Shown here: positions 17,887 to 22,693 of the stretch, one piece after another
How the letters are laid out: the number at the start of each line of letters is the position of its first letter
Position numbering within the stretch: the stretch's first letter is position 1
Assembly: GCA_903911145.1 (NCBI GenBank)
Contig: CAIWCD010000002.1
Coordinates: 1-64,000, forward strand
DNA length: 64,000 bases
Origin: an uncultured delta proteobacterium
GTDB taxonomy: Bacteria; Myxococcota; Myxococcia; Myxococcales; 40CM-4-68-19
Direction of reading: 5' to 3'
Notes under the pieces: model-generated
Databases searched by the model: none
The model's input: only the letters and a program-made list of their open reading frames with translations
What the model was told of the DNA's origin: nothing
Translations under genes and position numbers: made by a program

Positions 17887-18348
17887 ATGGACCCGACCCA
17901 GCTCAAGCAGATCCCGCTCTTCGCGAACCTCACGCCCGCGCACCTCGCGAGCGTCGCGGCGATCGCGGCCACCAAGAGCTTCAAGGCCAACGAGAAGATC
18001 TTCGAGGAGGGCGAGGTCGGCGGCGAGATGTTCCTCATCGCGACGGGCAAGGTCCGCATCTCGAAGATGGTCCCGGGCGTCGGCGAAGAGGCGCTCGCGA
18101 TCCTCGAGCCGGGCAGCTACTTCGGCGAGATGGCGCTCATCGACGACACGCCGCGCTCGGCCGACGCGACCGCGCACCAGGCCTGCACGCTGCTCACGAT
18201 CCAGAAGTCGGCGCTCGAGACGCTGATGCTGGCGAACAAGGATCTCGCGTACGAGCTGCTCACGACGTTCGTGAAGACGCTCTCGGGGCGGCTGCGGGAG
18301 ACGAACGATAAGATCAAGGCGTTCTTCGCGTTGAGCGCACGGTACTAG
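17887..18348 (+). CDS. Cyclic-nucleotide-binding domain protein
   Basis: 153 residues, nearly all one CAP-type cyclic-nucleotide-binding domain. The phosphate-binding cassette FGEMALIDDTPRSADA contains the Gly-Glu and Arg needed for cAMP/cGMP binding, so ligand binding is likely retained. There is no helix-turn-helix DNA-binding domain; a C-terminal helix of ~30 residues (LSGRLRETNDKIKAFF) follows instead. It probably acts as a stand-alone sensor that regulates a partner. It is divergent from trxB. Its stop codon is three bases before a long inverted repeat. Confidence 0.85.
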   Translation: MDPTQLKQIPLFANLTPAHLASVAAIAATKSFKANEKIFEEGEVGGEMFLIATGKVRISKMVPGVGEEALAILEPGSYFGEMALIDDTPRSADATAHQACTLLTIQKSALETLMLANKDLAYELLTTFVKTLSGRLRETNDKIKAFFALSARY

Positions 18349-18351
18349 CGC

Positions 18352-18481
18352 GCCGCGGGGCGCCGGTGCTGCTGGCCGTGCTCGGACATGCATCCGCGGC
18401 TGACGCAGAGAGTGCTCGCTGCGGAGAGTCGTGCGGCCGCTGCTGAACTGCGCGCGGCCTGCAGCACCGGCGCCCCGCGGC
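18352..18481. repeat. Long inverted repeat: 21-bp perfect arms, extended to ~29 of 30 pairs, 70-nt structured interior
   Basis: Arms gccgcggggcgccggtgctgc (18352-18372) and its exact complement (18461-18481) flank 88 bases. Beyond one T-T mismatch, another eight pairs (with one G-U) extend the stem to 18381/18452. The 70-nt interior contains nested complementary segments (gcggc/gccgc, cgcag/ctgcg). It begins three bases after the stop codon of the cNMP-binding gene. It could be a transcript-end hairpin, a MITE/REP-like element or a structured RNA; no target-site duplication is evident. Confidence 0.75.
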
Positions 18482-18575
18482 TATGACCGGACGAAAAGAG
18501 ATCGACGCAAAGATCGCGCGACGACGATCAGACGTTCCACTTGATCGTTGCCGTCAGTCCTTAAGGAGTCATCAC

Positions 18576-18898
18576 ATGGCATTTTCGATCCGCTGCGCCG
18601 CGCTGCTCCTCGTCGCGTTCGTCCTGTCGGCTCCGCCTTCAAGGCGAAGCTCGCCGTCATCCAGTCTCTCAAGGGCAAGCCACCGGTTGGCGATTCCTTC
18701 GAGGCAGAGACCAGCCACGACGAGCCACCTGTACATGCCTGCCCACTGGTCCTGAAGGCTGGCAAGAGCTACCTGCTGTTTCTGCGCTACGAAGGCAGCG
18801 CGCTGGTGCTCGAGCGCTATCACTCCTGGGATGGCGAAGTGGGCGACGTCCGAACGGACGCGTATGTGCGCGAGATCGCCGCGATGCATCTGCAGTGA
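18576..18898 (+). pseudogene. Frameshifted small secreted protein (NTR/TIMP-like remnant)
   Basis: An ATG at 18576 with a perfect aaggag upstream starts a clear signal peptide (MAFSIRCAALLLVAFVLSA), but that frame turns into a Ser/Arg-rich run. The following ~85 residues of plausible protein (FKAKLAVIQSLKGKP ... KSYLLFLRYEG ... EIAAMHLQ) lie in another frame of the same strand, needing a -1 shift near 18635-18650. The C-terminal part resembles netrin-like/TIMP-type secreted domains, but the N-terminal Cys region such domains have is missing. It is therefore either a decayed gene or a sequencing indel. Confidence 0.5.
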
Positions 18899-18949
18899 AT
18901 TCCCGCGGCAGCGGTATCGAGCCGAGACTGCACGAATGACTCGTTCGGC

Positions 18950-18983
18950 GCGACCCTACATTTTGTACAAATTGTAGGGTCGC
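18950..18983. terminator. Near-perfect palindrome between convergent genes
   Basis: The sequence gcgaccctacattttg/caaattgtagggtcgc forms a stem with one mismatch and a 2-base loop. It lies between the end of the broken secreted gene (plus) and the end of the 203-residue gene (minus), so a bidirectional terminator is the simplest reading. The arms are followed by gcggcg rather than a U-tract, so a protein-binding site is not excluded. Confidence 0.55.
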
Positions 18984-19013
18984 GGCGGAGCATCTCTTTC
19001 GCGGGGCGAGCGA

Positions 19014-19625
19014 TCAGCGCGAAGGCGCGCCCAGCTTGGCGAACGCTTCGAGCGTCTTCTCGCCAACGCGCTGATCCCACGCACCGAGGGTCATCGCTGG
19101 CCTCTTGTCCTCGCGATACTTCGTGCTGGTCATCACAACGTCCGCCACCAGCGTCCGCGTCTGGCCGTCGGGAAGCTCGACATCGAATGCGAGCCGCGCG
19201 CCGTCGAGGCTGGGCCCGCGCAGCCCCGCGCAGGTGCTCCGATAGAAATCGAGCATCGCGCCCATGTCGCGATTGTCGAGGTCGAACAGCTGCCCCTCGA
19301 GCGCGACGCGGCGGAACGAGCGCATCCCCAGCGCCGCATCGAGCTGGGCGATCTGGTGGATGCGCCGCAGAGCGAGTTCGGTGAGCGCTTCGCTCGCTTC
19401 GGCTCCTTTCCAGAGTGCCGGATGGATGAAGACCCGGCAGCGCAATCCGATGCGCTGCGCCTGCTCGGACGCATCGCTGTACTCGACGACTTTCGACGAC
19501 AACGGCCTGGGCGTCTCCAGTTTCTGCCCGGTCGCAAGCACGTCTTTCAACGCCTCGGTGTAGCGCTGCCCGGTCTCGTCCTGGCGCGCGCGAACGCGCT
19601 TCTTCAGATCCTTCTTCTTGGTCAT
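19014..19625 (-). CDS. Hypothetical protein, 203 residues
   Basis: Starts MTKKKDLKKRVRARQDETGQ at 19625, with ggag a few bases upstream; the track's longer ORF is unsupported. The basic N-terminal ~30 residues (K/R-rich, RARQDETGQRYTEAL) form a motif I have seen at the start of otherwise unrelated bacterial hypothetical proteins and may be a nucleic-acid or partner-binding tail. The remainder looks like a compact soluble alpha/beta domain without membrane segments. Function unknown. The 224 bases upstream before the next terminator hold its promoter but show no clear elements. Confidence 0.6.
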   Translation of the reverse strand: MTKKKDLKKRVRARQDETGQRYTEALKDVLATGQKLETPRPLSSKVVEYSDASEQAQRIGLRCRVFIHPALWKGAEASEALTELALRRIHQIAQLDAALGMRSFRRVALEGQLFDLDNRDMGAMLDFYRSTCAGLRGPSLDGARLAFDVELPDGQTRTLVADVVMTSTKYREDKRPAMTLGAWDQRVGEKTLEAFAKLGAPSR

Positions 19626-19849
19626 GGCCTCACTCCGCAGATCGGCTCGCTTGTGGTCCCATGCACCGCGAGCCGCGACGAAGGTGGCTTGTGCGGCAAA
19701 AGCGACTTCTCGTGCCCGAGGAGAGGACTCCCCTTCGCCCTCGTGTTGAGCCGGGCATGGGCCGGCCTGGGGAGGGCTGCGCGTGAGCGACGCGTGAGGG
19801 AACGATACGAGGCGTTCGCGACGGACGTCAACGAGGCGTCGCGCGCAAC

Positions 19850-19883
19850 GAAAAGGCCCGCCTCGATCGCTCGAGACGGGCCT
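19850..19883 (-). terminator. Intrinsic terminator of the Ig-like repeat lipoprotein gene
   Basis: On the minus strand, aggcccgtctcga pairs with tcgaggcgggcct (one mismatch) around a 4-base loop and is followed by a T-run (ttttc). It is placed 37 bases after the stop codon at 19920, a textbook Rho-independent terminator for the minus-strand gene. Confidence 0.85.
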
Positions 19884-19919
19884 CTCCTTCATTCAGCGAA
19901 GCGGCGCTGTCGTTGTGGC

Positions 19920-22574
19920 TCAGGGCCCCAGGGTGCTGAACGAGCTCTGCCTCGTCGACTGCTCGAGTTGGCCCACCTGCACCGAGACCTGCAGCCAGTA
20001 CGTCGTGCCGCTCGCGAGGGCCGAGCCCTGGCCATCCGAGTTGTAGCCGAGGCTGGTGGTGCCGCTGGGGATGTCCTTGATGTACCACTGCGTGTTGCCG
20101 TTCGAGTCGTTGACCTGCAGTTGGTAGGTGTACGAGCTCGGGGCCGGGCTGGGAGCGGTCCAGCTGATGGTCGGGATCGCCGTGTTGATCACTTCGCCGT
20201 TGGCAGGTGAGACGCCGGTCACGAGCGCGACCGCCGCAGGCAGCGGGGCCGACAAGATGGTGCTCGTGCCATCAGCGAAGCCGACCTCGAAGTCGTAGGT
20301 CGTACCGGTGATCGGCGTCCCGGCGAGCCGCAGCTGCGTCTGCCACGTCGCCTGTCCGCTGCCTCCATTGCCTCCGTTGTTGAGGCTGAGGCCAACGTCG
20401 GTCGGGACCACGCCGTCGCCCGAGAGGAGCTCGACGGTATTGATCATCTTGGTTCCCTCGACGACGACGGCCCCGTAGTTGACGTTGGAGTTGAAGTTAC
20501 CGTTGCCGTCGTAGCTGCCGTAGTTGTTGACGGCCATCTCGAGCATCGCAACCGACTGGCCGCCGAGCGACAGATCAACGCCGGTGACGGCAGCGCCCGA
20601 GACAGTGAACTGGGGCCCGGTACTCGAGTTGAGGTCATTCGGAAGGTTCGGGTTGAGGTAGCCGAGGTCATCGGGATCATCGAACGCGACGAGCTGGTAG
20701 GTCCCGTCCGGAACTCCGGTGAGCGAGTAGGCCTGCGCGGTGGTGGTCTGCTCGGTGTGCGCGAACGCGACCGGACCGCCTCCGCCGCTGATCGCCACGA
20801 CGTAGAGCGAGCCCGTGTTGGCGAAGCTCGAATCGGTGATGGTGCCGGAAACGGTGTGGCCGGTCGTCGCTGCATTGATCGTGACCGGGCCGAGATCGGC
20901 CGAGAAGTCTCCATCCACGCCGTTGAGGACGCCGCGATAACGGAAGCAGTAGCCGGTGCCGTTGGTCAGCGCGTTGGCGCCACCGAACATTCCGATGTTC
21001 ATCAGCCACGAGGGAGAGGTGATGAAGACCGCGCCGTTCTCGCTCGCGCTCGAGCAGTCGGTCGCCTGCGCCGCGACCGGACGCGCCTCGATGACGTAGT
21101 GATCGACGATGATGCCGCTCTGGTTGGAGAGGCCATTCCAACCGACCAGAGCCGAGCTGTCCGCAGGCATGACGAAGTTCATCGGTTGGCTCGGCGTCGG
21201 AACCGCGGGCACGATCGGATCGACAAGCGTGACATTGAAGTTCCTGACGCTCCCGAGCGTCGAGTAGCTGCCGCCGTCCGTCCCGATCGGATCCACAGCG
21301 GCCAGGGGAATAACCGTCTCGCCGGTCGTCTCCATCCACGCAGTCAGCTCGAGCAGCGAGCCGTTGTTCGGGTAGGCGGTGACTCCGCGCAGCGTGTAGC
21401 TGCCGGTGCCGCCGTCGAGAGCGAGGCTGGTGCCGCCAACGATGCTGCCGCCGCCGCAGTTGCTGCACGTCTCCAGCAACGAGACGTAGACCCGTCCGGA
21501 CTTCGAGCCCGCGTACGTGATCGTTCCGGAGACGGAGATCGAGACGGTGATCTCGACGCCGGCGGTGGCCGTCCCATCCGCCACGCTCGTCGCAACGAGG
21601 TGATAGACGCCGCTGTGGTTGGGCGCGGTGAACAGGCCTGACGCGTCGACCGAGGCGCCCTCGCCGGTCTCAAGCACCGACCAGGTCACCGCGTGATTCG
21701 TGGCGCCCGTCACGGTCGCCGAGAACTGGTGCGTCGCGCCCGGATCCATCGCGTAGCTCGCCGGCGAGATGCTCACGACGACGGGTACCGTCACCGCCGC
21801 AGTCGCGAACCGCCGGGGATCGGCGGCGCTCGTCGCGACGACGTGAAAGAGTCCAGCGAGGGGAGGAGCGACGTACGCGCCCGACGAACTGACCGAACCG
21901 CCCGTGAGCTCGGTCACCGTCCAGACCACCGAGGCGTTCGTGGTGCCAACGACCGAGGCAGTGAACTGCTGCGTGCCGAGCGCCGGGAGCGCGACGGACG
22001 TGGGGTCGATGGTGATCGAGACGAGGTCGACGACCACCGCCACCGTCGCGCTCTGCGTAGGATCGGCCACGCTGGTCGCAACGACATGATACGTGCCGCC
22101 CGTCGCAGGCGCGGTGTAGACGCCCGCGCTGGTCACGCTTCCCCCACTGGTCTCTGTGACCGACCAGGTGACGGCGGTGTTGCTCGACCCGGTCACGGTC
22201 GCGGTGAACGACTGCGTTGCGCCAGTGATCAGCGTCGCGGTCGTCGGAGCGATCGTGACGGTGACATCGAGAGTCACTGTGACCACGGCGGTCGCGCTCT
22301 TCGTCGCATCGGCCACGCTGGTCGCGACGACATGGAATGTGCCCGCGGTTGAAGGCGCGGTGTAGCTGCCGGTGCCATCGATCGCACCGCCCGCAGCCTC
22401 GGTCACACTCCACACCACGGCTGTGTTCGTCGCTCCAGTCACGGTCGCCGCGAAGGCCTGGACCTGACCGGGGTGAAGAGCCGCCGTCGTCGGGTTGATG
22501 GCGACGGAGATGGTAGCGGGAGTGGTGCTGCACGCAACGCAGGCGAATGCTGCGGCGAGAAGAAGACGGCGCAT
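19920..22574 (-). CDS. Secreted Ig-like repeat surface protein (probable lipoprotein)
   Basis: 884 residues from the ATG at 22574, with caaggag upstream; the track's 228-residue extension is antisense to radC. A short signal sequence ends in FACVAC-S, an imperfect lipobox, so lipid anchoring is likely but not certain. Four tandem ~85-residue bacterial Ig-like repeats follow (about 22-370), each with VTIAPTTATLxxGxTQSF, TAVTWSVTE and GTYHVVATSVAD signatures. The next part includes carboxypeptidase-regulatory-like/beta-sandwich segments (VSGTITYAGSKSGRVYVSL; TVSGTITDSSFANTGS) and a C-terminal fibronectin-like segment (TISWTAPSPAPSSYTYQLQV). No enzyme motif is seen. It is probably an exported adhesin or scaffold. 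A good intrinsic terminator follows it. Confidence 0.8.
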   Translation of the reverse strand: MRRLLLAAAFACVACSTTPATISVAINPTTAALHPGQVQAFAATVTGATNTAVVWSVTEAAGGAIDGTGSYTAPSTAGTFHVVATSVADATKSATAVVTVTLDVTVTIAPTTATLITGATQSFTATVTGSSNTAVTWSVTETSGGSVTSAGVYTAPATGGTYHVVATSVADPTQSATVAVVVDLVSITIDPTSVALPALGTQQFTASVVGTTNASVVWTVTELTGGSVSSSGAYVAPPLAGLFHVVATSAADPRRFATAAVTVPVVVSISPASYAMDPGATHQFSATVTGATNHAVTWSVLETGEGASVDASGLFTAPNHSGVYHLVATSVADGTATAGVEITVSISVSGTITYAGSKSGRVYVSLLETCSNCGGGSIVGGTSLALDGGTGSYTLRGVTAYPNNGSLLELTAWMETTGETVIPLAAVDPIGTDGGSYSTLGSVRNFNVTLVDPIVPAVPTPSQPMNFVMPADSSALVGWNGLSNQSGIIVDHYVIEARPVAAQATDCSSASENGAVFITSPSWLMNIGMFGGANALTNGTGYCFRYRGVLNGVDGDFSADLGPVTINAATTGHTVSGTITDSSFANTGSLYVVAISGGGGPVAFAHTEQTTTAQAYSLTGVPDGTYQLVAFDDPDDLGYLNPNLPNDLNSSTGPQFTVSGAAVTGVDLSLGGQSVAMLEMAVNNYGSYDGNGNFNSNVNYGAVVVEGTKMINTVELLSGDGVVPTDVGLSLNNGGNGGSGQATWQTQLRLAGTPITGTTYDFEVGFADGTSTILSAPLPAAVALVTGVSPANGEVINTAIPTISWTAPSPAPSSYTYQLQVNDSNGNTQWYIKDIPSGTTSLGYNSDGQGSALASGTTYWLQVSVQVGQLEQSTRQSSFSTLGP

Positions 22575-22693
22575 CGAGACTGCTCCTTGTGAAGAGTGAA
22601 GCGACGGATCGGGGACCCGTTCAGCGAACGCACCGTAGAGCAAACCGCGCTGCAGAAGGGTGGAAGGCAACATCGAAATGAATCGGCGGGTAC

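Follow-up and report, generated by a model that had tools for sequence, protein, structure and literature searches.

Probable palindromic mini-insertion elements at gene ends in an uncultured member of the Myxococcales

The large hairpin behind a cNMP-sensor gene in the window, i.e. the whole stretch of 64,000 nucleotides analysed here (contig CAIWCD010000002.1, positions 1 to 64,000, of an uncultured delta proteobacterium), probably represents a non-autonomous palindromic mini-insertion element of ~150 nt that has spread in its own genome, a reading to which we assign a probability of about two thirds. The best interpretation is a new family of palindromic mini-elements that resemble REPIN and YPAL and would be moved by a putative mobilising enzyme. 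When the draft genome to which the window belongs (5.30 Mb in 53 contigs, 99% complete) was searched at the DNA level, dozens of matches were returned, those of full length being 73-85% identical (best E 2e-39, leaving out the self-match), and a covariance model made from 33 aligned copies led to 34 full-length or nearly full-length copies. Both further copies and covariation, on which the original prediction had made its proposals depend, were found.

Structure of the hairpin

The original prediction had described a perfect 21-bp stem, extendable to about 29 of 30 pairs, which starts three bases after the stop codon of a gene for a cNMP sensor, and all of this was borne out. The 5' arm GCCGCGGGGCGCCGGTGCTGC is the exact reverse complement of the 3' arm, followed inwards by a T-T mismatch (18373/18460) and then by GGCCGTGC and GCGCGGCC with one G-T pair; only CGC separates the TAG from the stem; and the upstream protein contains a Pfam cNMP_binding domain. 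Folding of positions 18340-18500 as RNA gave -105.5 kcal/mol compared to -78.8 ± 3.9 kcal/mol for 200 dinucleotide shuffles (z -6.8), none of which was as good. The predicted extent of 18352-18481 is right for the hairpin itself, but the true repeated unit is larger, as it includes the AG of the stop codon on the left and, on the right, a 3' tail with weak conservation, CTATGACCGGACGAAAAG, that reaches to about 18498. Read from 5' to 3', the element consists of AG, an outer stem of ~21-25 bp, an inner stem CCGTGC/GCGCGG, the motif CTCRRACATGC opposite CTGAACTGC, a small apical helix, the outer stem again and the tail CTTGGACCGGACNAAAAG, in total about 150 nt (Table 1).

Table 1. Parts of the element and its upstream gene, in positions of the window
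Feature	Position	Strand	Remarks
cNMP-binding-domain gene, 153 aa	17887..18348	+	PF00027, E 1.3e-21; element at its stop codon
TAG stop codon	18346..18348	+	AG (18347-18348) probably the left end of the element
Outer stem, 5' arm	18352..18372	+	21 bp perfect; sequence free to vary among copies
Inner stem, 5' side GGCCGTGC	18374..18381	+	CCGTGC portion common to all aligned copies
Left motif CTCGGACATGC, family CTCRRACATGC	18381..18391	+	One strand of the internal loop; identity 0.93
Apical region with its own short helix	18392..18442	+	Moderately variable
Right motif CTGAACTGC	18443..18451	+	Mean pairwise identity 0.97; GAACT kept in related genomes
Inner stem, 3' side GCGCGGCC	18452..18459	+	Conserved
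Outer stem, 3' arm	18461..18481	+	Reverse complement of the 5' arm
3' tail TATGACCGGACGAAAAG	18482..18498	+	Weakly conserved; consensus CTTGGACCGGACNAAAAG

A strong GC-rich hairpin directly after a gene could also be an ordinary intrinsic terminator that is merely large. We regard this as barely credible, since the hairpin is followed by TATGACCGGACGAAAAG and not by a U-run, its arms enclose a long interior, and the existence of copies with a conserved 130-nt body contradicts it.

Copies and their placement at stop codons

In 27 of 35 examined copies the first stem base lies within about 12 nt of a same-strand gene stop (hand tally, counting same-strand open frames that span 100 codons or more and show a coding-type GC3), compared to 4.4% of random non-coding positions in a comparable test (binomial 4e-30). 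The other eight have no adjacent long open frame: one is found at the end of a contig, another comes after a frame of 60 codons and the others are located elsewhere between genes, with the first two (C39:139, at the contig start, and C35:126.7k) likewise found directly after a stop. TAG is the stop codon in 19 of 22 confident element-bearing genes, compared to 43 of 107 other genes (Fisher p 1e-4), and as AG is kept even in copies without an adjoining stop codon, it most likely belongs to the element. Pfam analysis of upstream proteins, for which only domain calls are usable as some queries carried a few non-native N-terminal residues, identified MreB, IF-1, Rho, a Lon-type substrate-binding protein (Lon-N domain), DksA/TraR and a subunit of a transketolase-type dehydrogenase, while RecN, UDP-glucose dehydrogenase and EF-G were among those assigned from inspected translations. 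The genes that bear the element have unrelated housekeeping functions and share no common pathway.

At the cNMP locus, the one site covered by the filled/empty comparison, all ten relatives with an orthologous gene (10/10) end at the same final residue (...FFA[LI]SARF, then the stop), followed by unrelated sequence and no element, indicating that in the own lineage the element was inserted precisely at this stop codon. A RadC-like frame is located ~100-150 nt past the cNMP gene in the relatives and ~4 kb from the element in the window (22.6-23.5 kb). The extra segment between them (~18500-22600), with the element at its edge, contains a large gene on the opposite strand for a protein with Ig-like repeats, and a near-perfect 36-bp palindrome, CGCGACCCTACATTTTGTACAAATTGTAGGGTCGCG, at 18949-18985, of which no second copy was detected among the fetched loci.

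In addition to the 34 copies, two divergent variants (C52:31526 and C7:3328) and a 5' remnant (C46:49212) were detected, and the copy at C46:27301 lacks part of the apical block. Two independent copies (C30:109.8k and C12:18.8k) show a tandem duplication of the 5' half, both ending directly after CATGC; judged from the sequence, this common inner breakpoint after ACATGC may be a candidate cleavage point of the mobilising enzyme. Tail-to-tail pairs with gaps of 58-121 nt are present on C31, C39 and C12, and a further one on C23 has a partner that consists of a hairpin with the tail but without the core. As the pair members on C39 and C12 are of different sub-types, they resemble independent arrivals. 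For pairs 3 kb apart, a composite transposon was considered and rejected, the intervening genes being ordinary and different.

The core-less hairpin on C23 is one reason to consider that the conserved core alone is mobile and was inserted into the loops of older terminator hairpins specific to the respective genes, whose former terminators would then make up the outer stems. This would account for stems that are variable yet perfect and that adjoin stop codons, and YPAL has been reported to target dyad symmetries (PMC2229807). We nevertheless consider it distinctly unlikely. Conservation among copies extends to the outer end of the stem (identity 0.70), the leading AG and the tail, which hence travel with the core, no T-run follows the stem, and the relatives have no such hairpin past the stop codon of the cNMP gene. 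Moreover, when the tail motif was followed as a separate general 3'-end feature, the hairpin on C23 was the single core-less one with the tail after genes in 315 kb.

Related elements were confined to three other genomes of the same family. One from the same genus carries about 15 copies with the same motifs, which are longer (about 170-195 nt), have another stem and are mostly located 3' of same-strand genes at distances looser than in the own genome. A second (G002) has one clear copy, and in the third (G011) three loci were found, all of them tail-to-tail inverted pairs, of which two share one composite with the ends TCGGTTCGGACTCGG; no target duplication was seen in this composite on inspection by eye. 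A broader model gave no further match among 145 genomes of the order under stricter filters, which weak relatives may escape, and a search with the core pattern led to seven scattered matches in named genomes, approximately the number expected by chance, and none in viral contigs.

Conservation, covariation and the level of pairing

The central motif CTCRRACATGC...CTGAACTGCGCGCGG is 93-97% identical across copies, and CCGTGCTC in the 5' side of the inner stem is invariant across the 33 aligned copies. Mean pairwise identity in this alignment was 0.93 for the left motif, 0.97 for the right motif, 0.58 for the apical region, 0.70 for the outer stem end and 0.39 for the mid stem. The latter is near random, yet ~93% of the alignment cells of the mid stem pair. 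Under the RNAalifold structure 95.7% of cells were paired, which dropped to 28-44% after sliding the partner by 1-3 columns, and 183 cells were changed on both sides compared to 50.6 ± 5.7 in shuffles. From its near invariance, the internal motif of the hairpin looks like a recognition site, in keeping with the cruciform protein target that the original prediction had named as a possibility.

If an RNA stem is under selection, G·U is expected to be more frequent than A·C. Alignment of the outer arms within each copy, with equal scoring of G·T and A·C, gave 770 Watson-Crick, 7 G·T, 15 A·C and 14 other pairs among 806 ungapped pairs, besides 20 gaps. That G·T is no more frequent than A·C (7 versus 15; two-sided p 0.13) suggests an upkeep of the stem at the DNA level, and these counts thus point to template switching and not to selection for RNA pairing as the cause of the maintained complementarity. 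Template switching has been described to keep hairpins perfect (PMC8794818) and is documented for bacterial quasi-palindromes (PMC7202029). A bulged base is conserved in about 20 copies, which complete correction by template switching would not predict. In the inner core, the few variable pairs change almost only via G·U (columns 43/112 and 60/98), as predicted for folding of the + strand, which may therefore matter in the core.

These data also bear on the suggestion, made in the original prediction, of a structured 3'-UTR RNA, which would here be a functional RNA family (e.g. binding a protein and tuning mRNA decay or end formation) held by selection on RNA structure. The sense orientation directly after stop codons fits this well, as do the strong covariation, the internal loop conserved across species and the variation of inner core pairs through G·U only. 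The outer-stem mismatches do not fit, as they show no preference for G·U, and furthermore the host genes have no common pathway, the orthologous cNMP genes of relatives lack the element, and Rfam gave no match at either gathering or relaxed thresholds. A structured RNA of this kind is therefore unlikely to be the main explanation. Covariation is commonly taken as proof of RNA structure, and 33 copies in one genome, which covary overwhelmingly while their outer stems do not favour G·U, provide a clean natural case in which to ask whether template switching alone can keep hairpins perfect.

Relation to known elements and possible mobilisation

Of the options named in the original prediction, a MITE/REP element comes closest, in view of the dispersed copies, the empty sites and the inverted dimers. 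It does not hold in the strict sense of a REP, for which stem and length are too large and a Y1/RAYT transposase is missing. REPs are reported to be located no more than 20 bp away from the 3' ends of genes, to which they frequently contribute a TAG stop (PMC3733652). With GTAG REPs and the REPIN-RAYT system (PMC3733652, PMC3116915), the element shares its palindromic nature, the dispersion, the location beside gene 3' ends, the frequent supply of a TAG stop and the inverted dimers, which REPINs form in convergent intergenic regions. In contrast, a REP is a unit of 20-40 bp with a stem of 5-13 bp and a small loop, whereas the element has a stem of 21-25 bp and a long interior; the REP tag is GTAG, whereas the element shows NTAG or TGAG, the base before TAG not being G in many copies; and, unlike in REPs, its centre is conserved and its stem variable. 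No Y1 (RAYT) transposase (PF01797) was detected in the own genome at its completeness of 99%, while all 11 other genomes of the family (11/11) contain Y1 transposases (IS200/IS605-like), with 2-23 per genome, and the Y1 loci fetched from these relatives showed no element above chance scores. A classical MITE is characterised by terminal inverted repeats in common with a transposon and by a target duplication of fixed length; the ends of the element form a stem, with the right end placed only approximately (to about 18498), and no parent transposon was found.

In the original report from 2006, the YPAL units of Yersinia were reportedly located closely downstream of stop codons and folded into robust hairpins; copy-specific stems have, to our knowledge, not been described for them. 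YPAL/RU-2 are palindromic mobile units of ~168 bp with empty and filled sites between relatives (PMC2229807, PMC2759123), as observed here. Homology was rejected, as 22 elements compared by blastn with the published RU-2 gave only short matches of the chance type, the best of 18 nt. The bcr1 repeat of the Bacillus cereus group is about 155 bp long, mobile-like, and has a folded structure with compensatory changes. It has been listed among the MITEs (PMC3733652). Its taxon and placement differ from those of the element, to which it is likened by description only. In its behaviour the element thus comes nearest to REPIN and YPAL, without belonging to either.

Integron attC sites are likewise hairpins after a gene in which structure comes first and sequence is poor. 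The element could accordingly be a single-strand DNA recombination site, attC-like or of another kind, with the folded hairpin bound by a tyrosine recombinase and located behind the stop as in integron cassettes, and the stem free in sequence, the conserved bulge and internal loop and the position immediately after the stop would agree with that. As the best match to the integron integrase model TIGR02249 in the own genome reached 88 bits compared to an NCBIfam cut-off of 265, and the copies form no arrays but are dispersed after resident housekeeping genes, we consider such a site very unlikely.

For the palindromic mini-insertion element that we favour, the following route can be envisaged. 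A candidate enzyme would recognise the motif of the internal loop, presented by a DNA hairpin that is extruded or single-stranded, and would place the element at or just past stop codons, with the leading AG of the element completing the stop. The stem arms would mutate freely and be re-matched at the DNA level via template switching during replication (quasi-palindrome correction), whereby pairing would persist without a constraint on sequence. Being co-transcribed, the element would form a very stable hairpin at the mRNA 3' end, with a possible role in transcript protection or in the insulation of convergent genes; 3'-end stabilisation of mRNA has been proposed for MITEs and REPs (PMC3733652). 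A bolder idea, put forward here only tentatively, is a new class of mobile DNA hairpins in which the near-invariant internal loop would be the sole sequence-specific part, an enzyme other than Y1/RAYT would target stop codons precisely using the element's own AG, and the arms would diverge almost freely while staying complementary through copying at the DNA level. The strict placement at stop codons without a RAYT points to an undescribed route by which mobile DNA is brought to gene ends without harm.

Repeats derived from retron msDNA are known from Nannocystis. Such an origin was rejected for the element, as no element-like sequence was found around the three reverse transcriptase genes of the own genome. 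Apart from the element, a distinct inverted repeat of ~250 bp is present on C2 at ~158.3-158.5k (L011:3955-4205), with a 51-bp stretch that is 86% complementary and similar frames on both strands, and may represent a second family of palindromic repeats there. Two paralogous gene pairs were observed on C23 (~173.3-176.9k; L121:3273-6883) and C51 (~10.2-13.8k; L122:3193-6761), each encoding a reverse transcriptase of ~505 aa, which matches the generic PADLOC RT model and several DRT/UG models weakly, followed by a multi-membrane protein of ~690 aa without a Pfam match, and they possibly represent an undescribed system of a reverse transcriptase and a membrane protein.
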